From contig JAUIII010000004.1 in assembly GCA_030431855.1 (NCBI GenBank), positions 1 through 59,475 on the forward strand: a stretch of DNA of 59,475 nt, written 5' to 3'. Under the pieces are notes generated by a model. The model saw nothing but the letters and a program-made list of their open reading frames with translations, was not told the DNA's origin and ran no database searches. Both the position numbers and the translations under genes were made by a program. This document shows positions 37,196 through 48,260 of the stretch, one piece after another; position 1 is the stretch's first letter; each line of letters begins with the position of its first letter. The stretch comes from a bacterium. Its GTDB lineage: Bacteria; Patescibacteriota; Saccharimonadia; Saccharimonadales; Saccharimonadaceae.

Positions 37196-38143
37196 ATGAT
37201 TCTAGGCATTGACGAGGTTGGTAGAGGGCCGTGGGCGGGGCCACTTGTGGTGGGTGCGGTTGTCTTAGGGGCTGAAATTAAAGGGCTGAACGATAGTAAA
37301 AAACTGACAAAACGAAAACGCGAATTGCTATACGATGAAATTATGGAACGCGCAGCCGCAGTAGGCCTGGGCTGGGTACAAGCAGACGAAATAGATCAAG
37401 TTGGGCTCTCAGAAGCGCTTCGACTTGCTTGTCGAAGAGCGATTATTGACATACAGGCACAGAAGGTAGCATTTCATGAAATTATCATTGATGGCACCAT
37501 AAATTTTCTAGAAGACACGAGCCTAGCACCATATGTAACAACCATGAAAAAAGCTGATGCACTCGTGCCGAGTGTATCAGCGGCGAGTATTGTCGCTAAG
37601 GTTGCGCGAGATGAGTATATGACGCATCAAGATGAGCTGTACCCGAACTATGGATTTAGGTCACATGTTGGCTACGGAACAGCGATGCATACGCACGCAT
37701 TGACACGATATGGCCTTACGCCGCTACACAGAAGAAGCTTTGCTCCAATAGCGAAAATAAGCGGAGATATTGTTCAAGCGAAGGCCGTTCAACCTCACAA
37801 AAATACAACCCAAGTTGGATCACGCTCGGAGGAAGCTGCATCGAATTGGCTCGAACAACAGGGCTTCACAGTAATAGAGCGAAACTGGAAGATTAAACTA
37901 TGCGAGATAGATATCGTAGCAAAAATGGATGACGTACTGCATTTCGTGGAGGTAAAACACAGAAAGAATGCACGTAGTGGCGACGGACTCGCAGCGATTA
38001 CACCGAAAAAATTACGCCAAATGAAATTTGCTGCAGATATGTATGTGCATTGGCATCATTTGTACGATTCACCAAGAAAGCTAGCAGTCATGAGTACGTC
38101 GGGCGAGGTGCCAAGCGTTGATCGATTTCTAGAGATTGAGTAG
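37196..38143 (+). CDS. rnhB: RNase HII fused to a YraN (UPF0102) nuclease-like domain
   Basis: 315 aa fusion. Residues 1-190 are RNase HII: GIDEVGRGP (D6, E7), IIDG (D99), KKADALVPSVSAASIVAK (D121) and GYGTAMHTHAL. Residues 207-315 are a YraN/UPF0102 domain with the PD-(D/E)xK-like set E237/D239 (CEIDIVA) and E252-x-K254 (FVEVKHR). The linker is 190-206. RNase HII removes RNA from RNA-DNA hybrids and ribonucleotides in DNA; YraN is Holliday-junction-resolvase-like of uncertain role. The two genes are commonly neighbours, so fusion supports a shared task. No internal stop or frameshift. Confidence 0.93.
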   Translation: MILGIDEVGRGPWAGPLVVGAVVLGAEIKGLNDSKKLTKRKRELLYDEIMERAAAVGLGWVQADEIDQVGLSEALRLACRRAIIDIQAQKVAFHEIIIDGTINFLEDTSLAPYVTTMKKADALVPSVSAASIVAKVARDEYMTHQDELYPNYGFRSHVGYGTAMHTHALTRYGLTPLHRRSFAPIAKISGDIVQAKAVQPHKNTTQVGSRSEEAASNWLEQQGFTVIERNWKIKLCEIDIVAKMDDVLHFVEVKHRKNARSGDGLAAITPKKLRQMKFAADMYVHWHHLYDSPRKLAVMSTSGEVPSVDRFLEIE

Positions 38144-40633
38144 GGCTTTTTCAACAGCCGGCTTGTCCTTTTCGATCAGTTCTACGCGCGCCTGAATTTC
38201 AACGATACCCAGCTGAATGGCTCGTTTCAGGGCGGGTTCTTTCATGAGGGGTGTAAAGAATCGCTTATAGTCTTCAAGTTGTTCGCGTGTCGTGAGGCCA
38301 CTCGCTGCGTATCGGGGGTAGTTATCATAACTCTTATCGCCACTAAATTGTTCCTCGATCCAGCTCCAGTTATCCTTCATCCACTGCCATGTAGCATCTC
38401 TCGCGTCGCGATTACGTATCAAATAAACAAACCAGCGCGCAGTATCTTGCGTTCGAATCTGCTCGGTATTAAGCATGAGGCTGTGCAGTCTTTCAATGGT
38501 CTGCTGATCTTGCGTCGATGTGAGCGCATCGCAGATGTCTAGCTGCAAGTCGACAGAGTTCGTAGAGGCGTATGTTTCAACAAGTAGGTTTATCAGCTTT
38601 GGCGTAGAGAAATGTCTCACCATCACAGACAGTACTAAGCCGCGTATTTCAGGCTCGATAGTCTCAAGGGTGCTTGACTCGTATAACTGCCTGGCATCGT
38701 TGAGTACGTTTTCGTCTTGTCCGTATACCATCAGGCCAGCGACACTGGCTCGCAGCTTTGTATCTGTCTCGGGCTCGCCTGGCGTATGGTTCCATCCGAG
38801 CCGTGTAAATTGCGCCTCTCCTACACGAGTACTCAACGAACGCAGCTTTTCTTCTGCTTTACTGTCTCGATCAACGAATTTCTTCAGTTCTCCAAAGGAA
38901 AGGCCGATCACATCCCAAACACTGTCAACGCTTTCCTTCTTGAATGTGTGCAAGAGCGGGATGAGCTGCTCGCTGCCTAGTTTACCTCCGCGAGCGAGTA
39001 GCGTTTGCTCGTGCAGAAATTGTAGGCGATCTACAGGGGAAAGAGCATCATCTTCAAGTTGCTGCAAGACAGCATCGAAGTGAGGATCAGAATAGTGCGT
39101 GATAAAATGCGCGGTATCATCTTTGTTTAACCGTTCACCGAGAGGCAATCCCTTGTCAAGTGCCTCTGTCTCTAGCAGTGAAGGAAATGATTCATCTGTA
39201 CTTTCCAGTGGTATCGGCCAAAATCGTGAGGATTCCGCGTGTGCGCCAATGAAAAACTGTGCTTGCGTCGTGCTGTCTTCCATCACGGATACTACCGGGT
39301 AGCCTGGTTGCGAGATCCAGACGTTCATAAACGACGTCACATCTTTGCCAGAGGCCGCAGAAAGCTCATTCCATAGGTCGTCACCCACTGTGTTTTGGTA
39401 TGCGTATTTCTTGAAATATGACTGCAGACCCGCACGGAACGCATCGTGCCCAATGTAGTATTGTAGCATTCGCATCAATCTGCCGCCCTTTGCATACACG
39501 ATAGCAGGGTCGAACAGTGATGTAATTTCATCGGGGTGGTGTACTTCAACCTGGACAGGCTGCACGCCATCGATTGCGTCACGTCGAAGCGCCATAACTG
39601 ATTCATGCCCAGCGAAATCGAGCCACATATTCCATTCTGGATGCAGAGCATCTGGAGCAAGATATTCCATTAAATTGGCGAAGCTTTCGTTTAGCCACAA
39701 GTTATCCCACCACTTCATAGTGACAAGATTACCGAACCACTGATGGCTTAGTTCGTGTGCGATAACCATAGCAACGAGTCGTTTGCTTGAAACACTCGTT
39801 GTGGTGGGGTGGGCAAGCAACGTTGCTTCGCGGTAAGTAATCAGTCCCCAGTTTTCCATAGCGCCACTGCTGAAATCAGGTAAGGCTACGTGGTCTGCTT
39901 TTGGTAGTGGATAAGGGACGCCAAAGTATTCTTCGAAATAATCAAGGGTTTGAATAGCACTATCAAGGGCGAAATCGAGGCTTTCAGCGGGCTGCGCTAC
40001 AGTTGACCAGATGTTGACATCGACACCTGATGCAGTAACCCCCGACTTGCTTTGCATGTGCCCATATACCCAGGCGAGTAAATAGCTACTCATACGAGGC
40101 GTTGTATCAAATGAAGTCACAAGTTTGCCGTCTTGTTCATCTTGAGATACGACGGGCATATTACCTAGCACTATTACGTCAGTCTCGGTTATCAATGTCA
40201 CATCAAATGTCGCTTTTGCCTCTGGCTCGTCGACGCAGGGAAATACCTCACGTGCGTGATGGCTCTCGAACTGGGTAGCAATAAGTGATTTCTTTACGCC
40301 TTCATGCTGAAAGTAACATGGATACATACCGTGCATTTGGTCTGTAATGGTGCCGCTAAAGCCAAGTACGACGATGTGTTTCCCTGGAAGCAATCCTGTT
40401 TTTGTGATTTCTAGCTCGTCGTTTTCGCGCTGCACGAAGCTCGCCGTGTGTCCATCAACAGTCGCTTGGTCGATTATTAAGTCTTTTGCATGCACTCTTA
40501 TAAAGTCATTCTGATGAGTTTCACCTTTGATAGTAACGGTTCCGCTAAAAGATTTATCTGCACGGTTAATATCTAGAGTGAGTGAATAGTGTTCTGGCGT
40601 GAGCCAGTCAACAAGTCGGTGTACGTTCTGCAT
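38129..40633 (-). CDS. pepN: M1-family aminopeptidase (PepN-like)
   Basis: 834 aa zinc metallopeptidase. The substrate-binding GAMEN (257-261) and the zinc site HELSH (293-297) with distal E316 (NLWLNESFAN) are intact, followed by a helical C-terminal domain. It trims N-terminal residues from peptides, useful for an amino-acid auxotroph. No signal peptide once the start is placed at 40633, where a TATAAT ends 6 nt upstream; the frame extends to 40768 but that part overlaps the divergent gene. It overlaps the rnhB 3-prime end by 15 nt. Confidence 0.94.
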   Translation of the reverse strand: MQNVHRLVDWLTPEHYSLTLDINRADKSFSGTVTIKGETHQNDFIRVHAKDLIIDQATVDGHTASFVQRENDELEITKTGLLPGKHIVVLGFSGTITDQMHGMYPCYFQHEGVKKSLIATQFESHHAREVFPCVDEPEAKATFDVTLITETDVIVLGNMPVVSQDEQDGKLVTSFDTTPRMSSYLLAWVYGHMQSKSGVTASGVDVNIWSTVAQPAESLDFALDSAIQTLDYFEEYFGVPYPLPKADHVALPDFSSGAMENWGLITYREATLLAHPTTTSVSSKRLVAMVIAHELSHQWFGNLVTMKWWDNLWLNESFANLMEYLAPDALHPEWNMWLDFAGHESVMALRRDAIDGVQPVQVEVHHPDEITSLFDPAIVYAKGGRLMRMLQYYIGHDAFRAGLQSYFKKYAYQNTVGDDLWNELSAASGKDVTSFMNVWISQPGYPVVSVMEDSTTQAQFFIGAHAESSRFWPIPLESTDESFPSLLETEALDKGLPLGERLNKDDTAHFITHYSDPHFDAVLQQLEDDALSPVDRLQFLHEQTLLARGGKLGSEQLIPLLHTFKKESVDSVWDVIGLSFGELKKFVDRDSKAEEKLRSLSTRVGEAQFTRLGWNHTPGEPETDTKLRASVAGLMVYGQDENVLNDARQLYESSTLETIEPEIRGLVLSVMVRHFSTPKLINLLVETYASTNSVDLQLDICDALTSTQDQQTIERLHSLMLNTEQIRTQDTARWFVYLIRNRDARDATWQWMKDNWSWIEEQFSGDKSYDNYPRYAASGLTTREQLEDYKRFFTPLMKEPALKRAIQLGIVEIQARVELIEKDKPAVEKALLNL

Positions 40634-40639
40634 ATCTCT

Positions 40640-40647
40640 ATTATACT
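40640..40647. promoter_or_regulatory. Overlapping divergent -10 boxes (bidirectional leaderless promoter)
   Basis: Within ATTATACT the minus strand reads TATAAT (40640-40645, 6 nt before the pepN ATG at 40633) and the plus strand reads TATACT (40642-40647, 7 nt before the ATG at 40655). The two start codons are only 21 bp apart. Confidence 0.7.
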
Positions 40648-40654
40648 TGAGAAT

Positions 40655-41317
40655 ATGAATTCTTACCGCATACGACGTGTAGTGGCTGTAGTAGTGCTGA
40701 TGATTCTTATGGCTATACCCCTTAGCAAGAGCCAGTTCCAACCAGTGCAAAACGTGAACGAGACACAATCTGCCGAAACAAAGAAATCAATACGTACACT
40801 AGAGAGCCTGTCGGTAAAGGGAAGGGCGCCAAAAACAGGCTATACACGAGATCAGTTCGGCAATGGCTGGGCTGATGTATTTGGATGTGACACAAGGAAC
40901 ATCATCTTAAAACGTGACCTGGAAGCGCCACGACTTGATGACGAGTGCCATGTTGTCTCGGGTGTCTTGCACGATCCGTATACGGGACGTACGATACAAT
41001 TCACTCGTGGTCCGGCAAGTAGTCAGGCTGTCCAAATTGATCATGTGGTTGCGCTGAGTGACGCATGGCAAAAAGGCGCACAGCAGCTTAGCTACGCGCG
41101 GCGCATCCAACTTGCGAATGACCCTCTCAACCTACTGGCAGTTGACGGTCCAGCGAATCAAGAGAAATCAGATGGAGACGCTGCAACGTGGCTGCCACCG
41201 AATAAACCGTTTAGGTGTCAGTACGTAGCCAGGCAGATTTCTGTAAAACAAAAGTACGCTCTGTGGGTGACGGAGGCGGAAAAAAGTGCGATGCAGAATG
41301 TTCTTGCCAGATGCTGA
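40655..41317 (+). CDS. Secreted/anchored HNH nuclease (DUF1524, GmrSD C-terminal-like)
   Basis: 220 aa. A basic N terminus and hydrophobic segment (about 7-23) look like a signal peptide or anchor. The nuclease domain has QIDHVVALSDAW (127-138, the metal/catalytic His), ND (155) and NQEKSDGDAATWLPP (168-182), as in secreted DUF1524 nucleases common in Actinobacteria. It likely degrades extracellular DNA for nucleotide scavenging or to process DNA for uptake. The start at 40655 fits the -10 box 7 nt upstream. Confidence 0.85.
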   Translation: MNSYRIRRVVAVVVLMILMAIPLSKSQFQPVQNVNETQSAETKKSIRTLESLSVKGRAPKTGYTRDQFGNGWADVFGCDTRNIILKRDLEAPRLDDECHVVSGVLHDPYTGRTIQFTRGPASSQAVQIDHVVALSDAWQKGAQQLSYARRIQLANDPLNLLAVDGPANQEKSDGDAATWLPPNKPFRCQYVARQISVKQKYALWVTEAEKSAMQNVLARC

Positions 41318-41391: not shown

Positions 41392-42516
41392 ATGGAAGAC
41401 TTAAACTTAAAACAGCTCACATTGGCAGTTCACACAATTGCCGAGGAAAAAAACCTCCCCGAGGACGTTGTGCTTGATGTTATTGAACAGGCAATCGCGG
41501 CAGCATGGCGACGCGACAACGGTGAGCGCGACCAAGATGTTCGAGCAGAACTCAATACTCAAAAAGGAACCGCAAAGGTATATGTACGCCATACGGTGGT
41601 AGAGGAAGTAGAAAACGACGCATATCAAATTAGTGTTGAGGATGCGCAGAAAATTAAAAAAGGCGCGAAACTCGACGACGTACTTGAAGATGTGCACGAA
41701 GTGACAAGCTTTGGTCGTGTAGCAGCACAGACAGCAAAGCAAGTTGTATTGCAGCGCTTGCGCGAAGCTGAACGAGAAGTTGTACTCGAAGAATATGAAG
41801 ACAAAATTGGCAGCATTGTGACTGGAACGGTACAGCGCGTTGAACCCCGTGTCGTTCGCGTTGAACTCGGTAAAGCAGTGGGTATCATCCCTCAAAGTGA
41901 GCAGATTCAGGGCGAGTTCTACAGTATTGGTAGTCGAATCAAGGTATTTATAAAGGATATCGAGCGTGACAATCGCGGCCCACAACTGATACTAAGTCGT
42001 GGCAACGAAGCGTTTGTCGAGCATTTGTTCATGCAGGAAGTGCCAGAAATGGAAACTGGTGCCGTTGAGATTAAAGCCATCGCACGAGAAGCGGGACGAC
42101 GCACGAAACTGGCGGTCTTTTCAAGCGTTCCTGGGGTAGACCCGGTCGGCACGTTTGTTGGTGGCCATGGAACGCGTGTGCAGGCGGTTATGAATGAAGT
42201 TGGCGATCAAGAAAAAATTGATATAATTCCCTACAGTGACGACCCAAATGAGTTCATCGTGAGCTCGCTAGGTCCAGCAGAGATTGCAAAGGTTGAGATA
42301 GACGAGAAAGCCAAATCTGCCAAGGTATTTGTCAATGAAGACCAGCAGTCAATTGCTATCGGCCGCGCTGGTCAAAACGTACGTCTGGCGAGTCGACTGA
42401 CAGGCTACGAACTTGATATCGAAACGGCTAAAGCGAAGGCGACTACTGAGCCAAAAGCGTCTCGGAAGAATATCGAAGATTCGCTGCTCGACGCAGTTAA
42501 CGAATCAGCAGACTAG
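41392..42516 (+). CDS. nusA: Transcription termination/antitermination factor NusA
   Basis: 374 aa. N-terminal RNA-polymerase-binding domain (1-125, LKQLTLAVHTIAEEKNLPEDVVLDVIEQAI), S1 domain (about 135-200, GSIVTGTVQRVEPRVVRVELG), KH1 and KH2 (about 230-345, PGVDPVGTFVGGHGTRVQAVMNE and AIGRAGQNVRLASRLTG). It modulates pausing and intrinsic termination. No acidic C-terminal repeats, as in most non-proteobacterial NusA. The presence of a terminator in its own leader suggests autogenous control. Confidence 0.96.
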   Translation: MEDLNLKQLTLAVHTIAEEKNLPEDVVLDVIEQAIAAAWRRDNGERDQDVRAELNTQKGTAKVYVRHTVVEEVENDAYQISVEDAQKIKKGAKLDDVLEDVHEVTSFGRVAAQTAKQVVLQRLREAEREVVLEEYEDKIGSIVTGTVQRVEPRVVRVELGKAVGIIPQSEQIQGEFYSIGSRIKVFIKDIERDNRGPQLILSRGNEAFVEHLFMQEVPEMETGAVEIKAIAREAGRRTKLAVFSSVPGVDPVGTFVGGHGTRVQAVMNEVGDQEKIDIIPYSDDPNEFIVSSLGPAEIAKVEIDEKAKSAKVFVNEDQQSIAIGRAGQNVRLASRLTGYELDIETAKAKATTEPKASRKNIEDSLLDAVNESAD

Positions 42517-42530
42517 TATGTCGCAACCCA

Positions 42531-42566
42531 AATTAGCACTCGTATTGCACGAGTGCTAATTTTTTT
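42531..42566 (+). terminator. nusA terminator built from the CIRCE palindrome
   Basis: 13-bp perfect stem AATTAGCACTCGT / ACGAGTGCTAATT with a 5-nt loop, followed by seven T. Confidence 0.85.
42533..42559 (+). promoter_or_regulatory. CIRCE operator (HrcA binding site) upstream of clpC
   Basis: Exact CIRCE consensus TTAGCACTC, N9, GAGTGCTAA. The -35 hexamer of the clpC promoter (TTGCAC, 42545-42550) is inside the N9 spacer and the -10 TATACT lies at 42568-42573 (17 bp), so HrcA binding would block polymerase directly. Confidence 0.92.
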
Positions 42567-42567
42567 G

Positions 42568-42573
42568 TATACT
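42568..42573 (+). promoter_or_regulatory. -10 box of the clpC promoter
   Basis: TATACT, 17 bp downstream of TTGCAC; leader of about 35 nt with GGAGGA at 42601-42606 as ribosome site. Confidence 0.65.
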
Positions 42574-42613
42574 AGGTATAGAATGCAAGATAAACGCGTG
42601 GAGGACGAACAAT

Positions 42614-45100
42614 ATGAGTGAAGATTTCGCAGAGTTTGTCGGAAAGTTGACTGATAACGCGAAAACCAGTCTACAACACGCTGGCGCGATAGCACGCGGG
42701 TACGGTAGTAATTATATTGGTACCGAGCATTTACTCATGGGCGTCCTTGCGCAAGGGTCATCGGTTGGCGCAAAACTGCTGGCCGACGCCAACGTAACTT
42801 TGGAACGCACAGAACTTGCCCTTAACCTTTCTCCTCGAAATTTTATTGTGAGCACAGGCATGATTGGGCTCAGTGACACGGTGAAATTAACGCTAAAGAT
42901 GGGCTGGGAAATCGCTCAAGAGTTTCATCAAGACTACGTGGGCACAGAACATATTTTATATAGTATATTGAGCCAAAAGGGCGCAAAAGCAACCTCTCTA
43001 CTTGCAGACATGGACGTTGATACTGAAGCGATGAAAGCTGAAATAGAAGACATTTTCGAGCGTCAACACAATTCGTTTCACGATAGTGACATAACAACTG
43101 CCCCAAAGGAAAAGCGAAAACGTGGCGGTGCGCTTGAAACGTTTGGATCTGACCTAACGGCCCAAGCGCGCGCTGGTAAGCTAGACCCAGTAGTGGGCAG
43201 AGGCAACCAGCTTGAGCGAATGGTAACGATTCTTAGTCGACGTACAAAGAATAACCCGGTGCTTATCGGAGACCCCGGGGTTGGAAAAACTGCTATCGTT
43301 GAGGGCCTTGCCCAGCGCATAGCCAACGAGGATGTTCCGGATCATATGCTGGACAAGAGGGTGATTCAGTTAGATATGGCAGGTATGATTGCAGGGACAA
43401 AATATCGTGGAGAGTTTGAAGAACGCTTGAAAAAAGTAATGAGCGAAATTCGTACGCAGAAAAATATCGTGCTGTTTATTGACGAACTTCACCTGCTGGT
43501 AGGCGCCGGAGCTGCAGAGGGGGCGCTTGACGCTGCGAATATTCTAAAGCCTGCGCTCGCTCGCGGAGAACTTCACCTAATAGGTGCAACGACGCTCGAT
43601 GAGTATCGGAAGTACGTTGAGAAAGACGCGGCGCTTGAGCGACGCTTACAGCCGATTGTGGTTCCTGAGCCAAGTCTGAAAGATACAATTTCGATACTAA
43701 AAGGATTGCGTACATACTATGAGAAACATCATGGCGTTGCAATGAGTGATGAAGTGCTTGAAATGGCAGTTCAAATGGCAGATAGGTATGTCTCTGAGCG
43801 CTTTATGCCAGACAAGGCAATTGACGTAATTGACGAGGCGGCAGCCCGAGTTCGAGTGAAACATGGACATAAGCCAAGCAAAGCTCGTGAGTACGCGAAA
43901 GAACTCAAGAATCTCAACGAGAAAATGGAGGATGCTGTCGCCGCCGAAGATTATGAGCGGGCTGCTTTATACAAAACTCGTAGCAGTCAAGTTTCACAGA
44001 AGCTTGATGAACTAAAACGACGATATGAACAGAAGAATCCCATTAAGCTTTCCGATGATGACGTTGCCCATGCTGTTGCAGTGATGACTGGCATACCAGT
44101 GAAGCGTGTACAGAAGTCTGAAGCACGTATGCTGCAATCGCTGGAAAAACATTTGGCGAAGCATATTATTGGTCAAGAAGAAGCTGTCGAAAAAGTTTCT
44201 CGAGCCGTTCGACGCAGTCGGAGCGGCATAGCTAGCAGCAAGCGTCCAATAGGTAGTTTTGTATTTATGGGTCCAACAGGCGTCGGCAAAACAGAGCTTG
44301 CGCGCGTGCTGGCGCGGGAGGTGTTTGGTAGCGACGACGCATTGATTAAAATTGATATGAGCGAGTTCGGTGAACGACACAATACCAGTCGCTTACTGGG
44401 TGCCCCAGCTGGCTATGTGGGCTATGATGACGGGGGTCAGCTAACAGATAAAATCCGGCGACAACCGTATAGCGTAGTGCTATTTGACGAAATCGAAAAA
44501 GCTCACCCAGATGTGTTTCAGCTACTCTTGCAGCTACTTGAAGATGGAGCATTAACCGACGCGAAGGGGCGTCGGGTAGATTTCAGTAACACTATCGTCA
44601 TACTCACTAGCAACCTGGGGGCTGATGCAATGCAACGGGAGGCGAGCTTAGGCTTTAACTCTACATCAAGAAAAGGCAACGAAAAGCTCGACGAACTACA
44701 CGAAGAGAATAAGATAAAAACCAAACGTGCCCTCGAAAAAATAATGCGTCCTGAGCTGATCAATCGCTTTGACTCTATCATTACATTCAGGGCTTTGACG
44801 AAAAAAGAAATTTCGAAAATATTCGATACGTTGATAAACGAATTACAAGCTAGATTAGTTCAGAAGGGTATACACCTAGTGGTAACACCATCTGCAAAAA
44901 AACATATTATGAAAATTGGACATGACGAAAAGTTTGGGGCGCGACCAATGCGACGCGCGATTGAGGACGAACTAGAGCATGCAATAGCCGAGGGCATACT
45001 ATCTGGCACGTTTGAGAAAGGCTCCTTATTGACGGCTCGTGCCCTAAAAGGTACCATAACCATTAATGCCACAACCGAATCAAACAACGAGACCTCGTAA
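42614..45100 (+). CDS. clpC: ATP-dependent Clp protease ATPase subunit ClpC
   Basis: 828 aa Hsp100 unfoldase. Clp N domain 1-150, AAA1 with Walker A GDPGVGKT (219-226), UVR-type middle domain (about 425-460, [19 protein letters not shown]) that marks ClpC rather than ClpB, and AAA2 with Walker A GPTGVGKT (553-560). It feeds proteins to ClpP. A perfect CIRCE operator upstream predicts heat-shock control by HrcA. The 3-prime end overlaps the next gene by 35 nt in another frame. Confidence 0.95.
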
Positions 45101-46070
45101 GCGAAACACACAGCTTGCATCTGTATTAATGGTGGCGCTGATAACATTGCTTGCAGTTGTCTACCATCAGTGGATTGTAGACGCGTTTCACTATGTTTCG
45201 TATCAGCCATCAAAAGCTGTTGCGAGCATCAGCCAGACGACAAACCTCACCGATACCGGTAAGTTTTATTTTTATGCAAGTCGTCCAGATATTGCTGGTC
45301 GTTCAACGTTTAACGATGAGTGCCAGCGTATGGAGGCAGACAGCCCCGTGCTTGGTTGCTATGTCTCGCAGCGCATATACATTTTCGACGTGACAAACAA
45401 ACAACTCTCAGGGATTGAAGAAGTAACTGCAGCCCACGAGCTTCTGCATGCTGTCTGGGAGCGTATGTCTGATGCAGATAGAAACAAGCTTTCTGAGCAT
45501 CTACAGTCGGACTACAAGAAAGTGCGTGACAAAGACCTCATCGAACGGATGAAATATTATAAAAAGTATGAACCTGGAGAAGAGAACAATGAGCTCTTCT
45601 CTATACTCGGGACCGAATTCAGAAACTTAAGCGCGCCTCTCGAAAAGGAATATGCTAAGTACTTTGCAGATCGTCTCGCGATTGTTTCGTTCCACGAGAA
45701 CTCTCAAGCGGTTTTTGATAGGCTCAGCAACAAAGCAGCGAGCCTTGCTTCCAGATTAAACAGTCTGATTGATGGAATCAACCAAGCAACCGAGCGTTAT
45801 AACACGCAAGCAAAAGCGCTAGAGCAGCAAATTGCCGCTTTTAATACACGTGCCCAACAGCAAGGTGGCTTCAGTACTCAGGGTGAATTTGACGCTGCAC
45901 GAGCTCAGTTGCTAACCGAAGTCGAAAGGTTAAAGGCGACGCGCGCGCGGATAAATAGTGACATAACTCTATCAAAAAAGCTACGGAGCGAATTAGAAGC
46001 GGTTGCCGCGGAATCATCCGCACTGAATAAGAGTATTGATAGTAATCTTGCACCAGCGGCAGAGCTGTAA
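45066..46070 (+). CDS. Membrane-anchored HExxH metalloprotease-like protein
   Basis: 334 aa, family not recognised. Basic N terminus and one transmembrane segment (about 17-35); then an extracytoplasmic domain with TAAHELLHAVW, where HELLH (124-128) matches the zincin HExxH signature. Residues 225-330 form a long coiled coil (QATERYNTQAKALEQQIAAF and on) ending near the C terminus. Two Cys (86, 98) could form a disulfide. A surface protease or inactive zincin with a coiled-coil arm is suggested. The start overlaps the clpC end by 35 nt; a late start cannot be excluded. Confidence 0.65.
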   Translation: MPQPNQTTRPRKRNTQLASVLMVALITLLAVVYHQWIVDAFHYVSYQPSKAVASISQTTNLTDTGKFYFYASRPDIAGRSTFNDECQRMEADSPVLGCYVSQRIYIFDVTNKQLSGIEEVTAAHELLHAVWERMSDADRNKLSEHLQSDYKKVRDKDLIERMKYYKKYEPGEENNELFSILGTEFRNLSAPLEKEYAKYFADRLAIVSFHENSQAVFDRLSNKAASLASRLNSLIDGINQATERYNTQAKALEQQIAAFNTRAQQQGGFSTQGEFDAARAQLLTEVERLKATRARINSDITLSKKLRSELEAVAAESSALNKSIDSNLAPAAEL

Positions 46071-46076
46071 CTAAGG

Positions 46077-46082
46077 TATACT
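46077..46082 (+). promoter_or_regulatory. -10 box of leaderless promoter for radA
   Basis: TATACT with 6 nt (AGACCT) before the ATG at 46089. Confidence 0.65.
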
Positions 46083-46088
46083 AGACCT

Positions 46089-47438
46089 ATGGCGAAAGCA
46101 AAACACAAATTTGTGTGCAATAACTGTGGCGCACAGTACCCGAAATGGACAGGTAAGTGTGATAATTGCGGAGAATGGAACACATTAGCTGAAGAGCTAG
46201 TTGAAACTGGTGCGTCTGCTGTTGCAAAAAGTCATAGCAGTGGCACGGTACTGCGTCCACAAACGATAGGATCGATCGCTGATGAGCAAAGGCTGGCGAG
46301 ACTTGATACAGGTATTGCAGACGTCAATGAGGTTCTAGGCGGGGGTATTTTACCAGGTGGCGTGATGCTGCTGGCTGGTCAACCAGGTATTGGTAAAAGC
46401 ACTGTGCTGCTTCAGATTGCTGCGTATGTGGCGCGCAGCAAACCGGTGCTATATGTGAGTGGAGAGGAGAGCGCTCATCAGGTAAAATTGCGCGCTCAAC
46501 GACTGGGAGCACATACGCAAGACCAGCTAAGTTTTGTCGCGAGTACCAGCGCTGATGATATTGCAGCAACCATTCGATCGGATGCGCACAGTCTTGTTAT
46601 TATTGACTCCATACAAACACTCAGCCTCGCTGAAGTTGCTAGTGCACCGGGAAGCGTTAGTCAGATTACCAATAGCAGCAATGTGATACTCCGCGCAGCC
46701 AAGGCTTCAGGCGCTGCGGTGGTGTTAGTAGGGCACGTCACAAAAGAAGGTAGTATTGCTGGTCCAAAAGTTCTCGAGCATCTGGTCGACGTTGTTCTAC
46801 AGTTTGAGGGTGATCGCTACGGTGGGTTTAAGATACTTAGAGCTGCCAAGAATCGCTTTGGCTCTACGAGCGAAGCAGCGATTTTCGACATGGACGAAAC
46901 AGGACTGCACATTGTTGAGAACCCATCGGCTGCGCTACTCGCAGAGCGACAAAATTCCGATGGCTCGGTGGTGCTCGCAACGATGGAGGGTAATCGGCCA
47001 CTTCTCGTAGAAATCCAGGCACTTGTCAATCCAACGAATTTCGGCTATCCTAAGCGGACAGCTAGCGGCTTCGACTTAAACCGATTAAATGTTATTATTG
47101 CCGTTCTCGAACGGCGCACAAAATTGAATTTATCAGATAAGGATATTTACATAAACGTCGTTGGAGGCCTCAAACTGTCTGACCCCGCGGCCGATCTTGC
47201 GATTTGTATGGCTATCGCAAGCGCAGCGGCTCAGCGTAAGCTCGAGGAGCATACGGTAGTATTTGGCGAAGTCGGTCTTGGTGGCGAAATTCGATCAGTC
47301 ATGTCTGCTGCACGGCGTAGTGCTGAGGCAAAAAAACTAGGCTTTACAAATATTATTGGCCCAAAGTCGTCTGCTAAAGCAGGCATCACGACATCGGTTG
47401 CAACGTTGCGCCAAGCACTTATCGACTATTTGAAATAA
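46089..47438 (+). CDS. radA: DNA repair protein RadA (Sms)
   Basis: 449 aa. N-terminal C4 zinc finger (C10, C13, C24, C27), RecA-like core with Walker A GQPGIGKST (97-105), the RadA-specific KNRFG motif, and a C-terminal Lon-protease-like domain (about 290-449, inactive in the family). It is a DnaB-type helicase that drives branch migration during recombination and, in competent bacteria, integrates incoming DNA. Confidence 0.96.
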   Translation: MAKAKHKFVCNNCGAQYPKWTGKCDNCGEWNTLAEELVETGASAVAKSHSSGTVLRPQTIGSIADEQRLARLDTGIADVNEVLGGGILPGGVMLLAGQPGIGKSTVLLQIAAYVARSKPVLYVSGEESAHQVKLRAQRLGAHTQDQLSFVASTSADDIAATIRSDAHSLVIIDSIQTLSLAEVASAPGSVSQITNSSNVILRAAKASGAAVVLVGHVTKEGSIAGPKVLEHLVDVVLQFEGDRYGGFKILRAAKNRFGSTSEAAIFDMDETGLHIVENPSAALLAERQNSDGSVVLATMEGNRPLLVEIQALVNPTNFGYPKRTASGFDLNRLNVIIAVLERRTKLNLSDKDIYINVVGGLKLSDPAADLAICMAIASAAAQRKLEEHTVVFGEVGLGGEIRSVMSAARRSAEAKKLGFTNIIGPKSSAKAGITTSVATLRQALIDYLK

Positions 47439-47450
47439 TGAAAGGAATGT

Positions 47451-48260
47451 ATGGAATTAGTAATACTGACTCTGGTGGGGATTGCAGTTATCGAGGTATC
47501 GTACCTCATATACATGCAGCACACGCCACATCTAAAAAATAAACGACTCGCGAAGCCCGTCTTTGTCGACACGTCTGTCCTCATGGATGGCAGGGTTTTA
47601 ACCGCTGCAATGACTGGTTTTGTCCCGTCAAGGCTCGTCATACCACGAAGCGTTGTCTCTGAATTGCAGCTTGTTGCCGATAGCGCCGATCCAGACAAGC
47701 GCTCTCGCGCTCGACGTGGCCTCGACGCAATTAATGAACTGAAAGAAATAAAGCATGTGAGTGTGGAGATATTACATGATGGGCCTGTTGGACACGGCGG
47801 AGTGGATACTCGGCTCGTCGAGCTTGCGAAGAAGCATCATGGCTATATTTGTACTATTGACTTTAATCTCAATAAAGTTGCCCAAGTTGAGGGTATATTC
47901 GTACTCAATATTAACGAACTTGCTTCAAACCTACGCATGGCATTTCTGCCAGGGGAGAAGGTGTCTCTAGAGCTCATTCAAAAAGGAAACGACTCTCAGC
48001 AAGCGGTAGGATACCTAAGTGACGGTACGATGGTCGTTGTTGAGAAAGCGGTCAAAGATATTGGCACTACAGTTGAGGTTGAGTTCATTCGAGCACTACA
48101 GACGGCAGCGGGCCGTATGATGTTCGCAAAAAAGGTGGGAAAGGCGCAGGATAAGGACATTACTAGGCACAGTGGTCGCAAGCGACCTTCTAGCTCACGA
48201 GGCGCACGTAAAGCGCCGAAAAATGCCGAGGATAGCCTCGTTCAACTCGCAAATGAGTAG
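47451..48260 (+). CDS. PIN-TRAM domain protein (YacL-like)
   Basis: 269 aa. A hydrophobic N-terminal segment (1-22) may anchor it. The PIN nuclease domain starts VFVDTSVLMDGR (D40, D46) and includes TIDFNLNKVAQ with a further acidic residue; a TRAM domain follows (about 180-235, LIQKGNDSQQAVGYLSDGTMVVVE), then a basic Ser/Arg tail. Bacillus YacL has the same PIN-TRAM arrangement after membrane segments, and its gene is usually next to radA, as here (12 nt gap). Confidence 0.9.
   Translation: MELVILTLVGIAVIEVSYLIYMQHTPHLKNKRLAKPVFVDTSVLMDGRVLTAAMTGFVPSRLVIPRSVVSELQLVADSADPDKRSRARRGLDAINELKEIKHVSVEILHDGPVGHGGVDTRLVELAKKHHGYICTIDFNLNKVAQVEGIFVLNINELASNLRMAFLPGEKVSLELIQKGNDSQQAVGYLSDGTMVVVEKAVKDIGTTVEVEFIRALQTAAGRMMFAKKVGKAQDKDITRHSGRKRPSSSRGARKAPKNAEDSLVQLANE

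Follow-up and report, generated by a model that had tools for sequence, protein, structure and literature searches.

Between nusA and clpC, which lie 97 bp apart on the same strand of a saccharibacterial contig, there is a palindrome whose sequence raises the question of how many functions it serves. The sequence-only reading had assigned it three, as a binding site for the heat-shock repressor HrcA, as the holder of the -35 of the clpC promoter, and as the terminator of nusA, and had added that the heat-shock regulon looked rewired. We examined these roles in the window (the whole stretch of 59,475 nucleotides that was analysed), in the 830-kb genome from which it comes, and in relatives; where those of the nusA locus carry a name, it is Candidatus Saccharibacteria. 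Our analysis indicates that the palindrome is very probably a CIRCE operator laid over the -35 of a sigma-70-type clpC promoter, from which repression would be lifted by stress.

An operator on the clpC promoter

The perfect CIRCE that had been read after nusA is present (Table 1), 16 bp beyond the nusA stop codon (42514-42516), and is the sole match in the window at up to three mismatches, where shuffling predicts 0.04. By RNA folding, an extended stem pairs positions 42530-42543 with 42549-42562 (-18.7 kcal/mol, z = -7.0); the palindrome and the seven T that follow are as first described, but the stem is 14 bp long and not 13 bp. The 9-bp CIRCE spacer ends with TTGCAC and TATACT follows 17 bp on, also as first described, and TATACT is the commonest clpC -10 in relatives as well. 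This promoter is absent from the output of a generic promoter scan because TTGCAC agrees with the sigma-70 -35 consensus at only three of six positions, and the evidence for the -35 was therefore drawn from relatives.

Table 1. Features of the nusA-clpC junction, in window coordinates
Feature	Position	Strand	Basis
nusA (374 aa), upstream gene	41392..42516	+	TIGR01953 NusA, 371 bits; PF08529, PF13184
Terminator-like hairpin (extended stem of 14 bp, loop of 5 nt)	42530..42562	+	Folding; best among 52 window gene ends
Perfect CIRCE operator, TTAGCACTC-GTATTGCAC-GAGTGCTAA	42533..42559	.	Pattern search; kept before clpC in relatives
-35 hexamer TTGCAC in CIRCE spacer	42545..42550	+	Position conserved in relatives
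T7 run after CIRCE, first three T paired in stem	42560..42566	+	Sequence; varies among relatives
-10 hexamer TATACT, 17 bp after -35	42568..42573	+	Sequence; -10s of clpC in relatives
Shine-Dalgarno-like GGAGG before clpC	42601..42605	+	Sequence; role inferred
clpC (828 aa; Clp_N, two AAA domains, UVR motif), regulated gene	42614..45100	+	Pfam

CIRCE sites of the regulon were scored for a TTG[AC] that lies in the spacer or at it and is followed by TANNNT 16-18 bp on. This arrangement occurs at 188 of 229 sites, and at 98 of the 112 clpC sites. The reverse strand has it at 1 of 229, and shuffled spacers would give 9.3. The hexamer itself varies by gene, being almost always TTGACA at dnaK, TTGACC, TTGACG or TTGCAT at clpC, and TTGCAA or TTGACG at groES, and the TTGCAC of the window is among the weaker members. 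To judge from these sequences, the location of the -35 between the CIRCE arms is no coincidence but a rule that holds throughout the regulon and the order, which bears out the placement read at clpC and extends it to the other targets. Because the -35 lies in the spacer at so many of the sites, HrcA most likely represses by covering it, with steric exclusion of RNA polymerase as the simplest mechanism.

The CIRCE positions published for other bacteria differ. That of Lactobacillus plantarum is 3-4 nt beyond the transcription start, and in Lactococcus lactis the promoter of the dnaK operon is overlapped by two CIRCE (PMC1676014), while in Campylobacter the start site is covered by HrcA (PMC7464140). 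Operators that lie on promoters are nothing new; what marks this lineage is that the placement is uniform throughout the regulon.

Two variants of the design were observed. In many groES copies (e.g., L188, L189, and L191), the right arm is changed to AAGTGCTAA and overlapped by the -35 TTGCAA, so operator letters seem to have been traded for promoter letters in these sequences. In two Patescibacteria outside the class (L292 and L293), the spacer of the clpC CIRCE holds TATAAT, a -10, with TTGACA 17 bp upstream, which is another means of bringing one of the core promoter elements between the CIRCE arms.

The HrcA regulon in the genome and across the order

A single hrcA was found in the 830-kb genome (C25:30108-30554, PF01628 match; lineage Candidatus Saccharibacteria), together with seven CIRCE-like sites, located at clpC, clpP, dnaJ, groES(-groEL), and hrcA-grpE, with two at dnaK. 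A backwards control pattern gave no matches in the same 830 kb. With flanks read, the copies before clpC, dnaJ, dnaK, and clpP are perfect, and those before groES-groEL and hrcA-grpE carry one and two mismatches, respectively. The two palindromes at dnaK are 48 bp apart (L006:3104-3178) and the second is weak or degenerate; tandem pairs with similar spacing also occur in relatives, such as G026, G041, and G058.

These sites bear directly on the proposal that the regulon was rewired, with clpC replacing groESL or dnaK as the target of HrcA. It is true that clpC and clpP carry CIRCE in addition to the classical targets and that CtsR is absent, but groES, dnaK, dnaJ, and hrcA-grpE of the same genome keep their CIRCE, as they do in relatives, and we regard a replacement as next to impossible. 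Since groES, dnaK, dnaJ, hrcA-grpE, and clpP all have the operator too, the statement that it stands at clpC and not at groESL or dnaK was wrong. The regulon is complete in its classical chaperone genes and extended by clpC and clpP.

The same composition is seen beyond this genome. CIRCE with at most two mismatches occurs in all 61 genomes of the family, in 1 to 9 copies each, and hrcA was found in 59 of the 61. When loci were counted by the presence of CIRCE within 400 bp upstream, with the 115 clpC loci coming from some 37 families of the order, the operator was present at clpC in 112/115, dnaK in 28/30, groES in 30/30, clpP in 29/30, and dnaJ in 30/30. The CIRCE between nusA and clpC is thus part of a conserved arrangement; of the three clpC loci at which none was found, one is cut at a contig end. 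In the same class but outside the order, the clpC CIRCE again has the -35 in its spacer (L281 and L282), and CIRCE at clpC was absent in the other Patescibacteria compared. The operator, the presence of hrcA, the membership and conservation of the regulon, and the fixed position of the -35 are established by these comparisons.

In Firmicutes, the usual repressor of clpC is CtsR, whose regulon comprises ctsR-mcsA-mcsB-clpC-radA and clpP. A search for CtsR (PF05848) found it in none of the 61 family genomes and detected it in the control genome of Lactococcus lactis. The two systems share a single heat-shock repressor for clpC and clpP and the closeness of clpC to a RadA-like gene, but here there is no CtsR homologue and the operator is CIRCE. 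HrcA would take the place at clpC and clpP that CtsR holds in Firmicutes.

Possible termination of nusA transcripts

The third role, that of an intrinsic terminator of nusA, would make the palindrome a three-in-one element. Its form fits, as a G+C-containing hairpin is followed directly by a T run, and the 14-bp stem, 5-nt loop, and T7 are of the kind found in intrinsic terminators. No other of the window's 52 gene ends scores as high, and such structures were present at 6 of the 52 compared with 14 of 400 random segments. In close relatives that have names, the run comprises four or more T at 26 of the 32 junctions where nusA is no more than 30 bp away and at two of the nine with a longer gap, a trend that may be due to shared ancestry.

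Comparison across the regulon, however, does not supply the support that the form invites. In relatives, the T run showed no difference over 222 sites between co-directional (179) and divergent (43) upstream genes (p = 0.65 for T in 8 and p = 0.09 for run length). Where the -35 comes early in the spacer, about 5 nt are left before the -10 and T runs of at least five occur at 8 of 111 sites, compared with 31 of 84 where it comes later. The T run appears at these sites to follow promoter geometry, that is, the -35 position, and not the arrangement of the upstream gene. When -35 position is equal (later), clpC T runs of at least four are present in 12 of 20 close co-directional cases and in 5 of 9 without such a neighbour. 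Moreover, T7 is found at groES copies whose neighbours are divergent (L191, L196, and L200), and many nusA-adjacent copies in other families have T0 to T3.

Two candidate lines of evidence for termination were also tried. Symmetric arm changes, as a sign of RNA pairing, occur at 36 of 92 co-directional and 4 of 34 divergent sites when pooled, but are not significantly enriched at co-directional sites once stratified by gene (CMH chi2 2.73). The T run as a terminator dependent on the upstream gene was compared by orientation, by -35 offset, and by distance from nusA, and a trend limited to one clade was all that remained.

Termination of nusA transcripts is possible in this clade, but the comparison does not support selection for that role, and we consider it a tentative and somewhat doubtful addition to the operator and promoter functions, which are well supported by sequence and comparison. 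If any nusA transcripts do end at the palindrome, this would be incidental or local. A bifunctional operator-terminator in this clade, which ends nusA transcripts and at which bound HrcA alters termination as well as read-through into clpC, seems to us unlikely; if it were true, heat would couple the mRNA end of nusA, a transcription factor, to clpC expression.

The repressor and the proposed mechanism

The hrcA open reading frame (L006:1387-2100) encodes a protein of about 235 aa, roughly 100 aa shorter than the 338 of the homologous PDB chain. Its DNA-binding domain is intact and was matched to PDB 1STZ, and both the winged-helix domain (PF03444, 28.1 against a cut-off of 21) and the C-terminal domain (PF01628, 66.6 against 22.2) were detected, but the protein falls below the TIGR00331 equivalog cut-off (173.5 versus 197.2 bits), perhaps due to its shortness. 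Its middle part is reduced in the profile alignments, and the C-terminal Pfam domain is matched over positions 75-215 only, with similar ranges in relatives. The alignments suggest that the inserted domain is reduced or missing in HrcA of this family, and sensing or dimerisation by such a short, sub-cut-off protein may differ. HrcA of the family as a whole is only about 235-250 aa long, relatives L301 and L306 included, and the C-terminal Pfam match begins at position 75-105 in nearly all of its genomes.

From the operator and its position we infer HrcA binding, repression, and heat induction. At normal temperature, an HrcA dimer on both arms would cover the -35 in the spacer and keep RNA polymerase off. 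Under heat or misfolding stress, HrcA would lose activity, which in known systems involves titration of GroE, and its release would allow clpC to be transcribed along with clpP, groES-groEL, dnaK, dnaJ, and hrcA-grpE, all of which have the CIRCE-promoter unit. The clpC transcript is expected to begin some 7 nt beyond the -10 and thus to exclude CIRCE, with a leader of about 34 nt that includes GGAGG.

This start also bears on a different reading, in which CIRCE-bound HrcA is mainly a roadblock to polymerase coming from nusA, or the hairpin acts on stability or translation in nusA-clpC read-through RNA. The orientation of the genes would allow it, given that nusA is co-directional and stops 16 bp short of CIRCE and that the upstream gene is co-directional at 101 of the 112 clpC sites. 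The operator, however, stays on the -35 at divergent loci too (groES and clpC sites), and clpC has its own promoter and Shine-Dalgarno sequence, hence CIRCE lies outside the primary clpC mRNA. We find this reading very unlikely and favor repression at the clpC promoter itself.

Leader length differs among CIRCE promoters of the lineage. The distance from the -10 to the start codon is 6-8 nt at 19 of 22 clpP and 15 of 18 dnaJ promoters (L215-L274), which suggests that the clpP and dnaJ mRNAs may be leaderless, and the hrcA promoter of this genome resembles them.

Compared with the class I HrcA/CIRCE regulon of Bacillus subtilis and lactic acid bacteria, the system shares the operator TTAGCACTC-N9-GAGTGCTAA, hrcA, and the groES(-groEL), dnaK, grpE, and dnaJ targets, but differs in having the -35 in the spacer throughout, in the addition of clpC and clpP, and in an HrcA about 100 aa shorter. 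The HrcA regulon of Mycoplasma gallisepticum comprises clpB, lon, dnaK, and dnaJ (PMC4245973). Mollicutes thus resemble this lineage as genome-reduced bacteria in which HrcA controls Clp or Lon proteolysis, although clpC and clpP take the place of clpB and lon here and groES is included. Literature searches for HrcA/CIRCE in Saccharibacteria, Patescibacteria, or CPR found nothing relevant; the regulon map, meaning its composition and its fixed geometry in the lineage, seems to be new, while the mechanism is already known. In the reduced, mostly epibiotic Saccharibacteria (more than 100 genomes compared), one heat-shock repressor would serve both folding (groES-groEL, dnaK, and dnaJ) and Clp proteolysis (clpC and clpP), and the fixed operator-on-promoter design could be used to predict transcription starts where almost no promoters have been mapped.

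Several neighbouring genes of the window were also noted. Downstream of clpC (45066-48260) are a 334-aa open reading frame that matches nothing in Pfam, a RadA-like ATPase (46089), and a PIN/TRAM-like open reading frame without a Pfam hit, a region that resembles the clpC-radA neighbourhood of Firmicutes without ctsR-mcsAB. Farther upstream, at 37196-38143, a single open reading frame fuses RNase HII (PF01351) to a UPF0102/YraN nuclease-like domain (PF02021). Just upstream of nusA, the open reading frame at 40589-41317 has a GmrSD_C nuclease domain (PF07510) and a hydrophobic N terminus, and its product is possibly a secreted nuclease.
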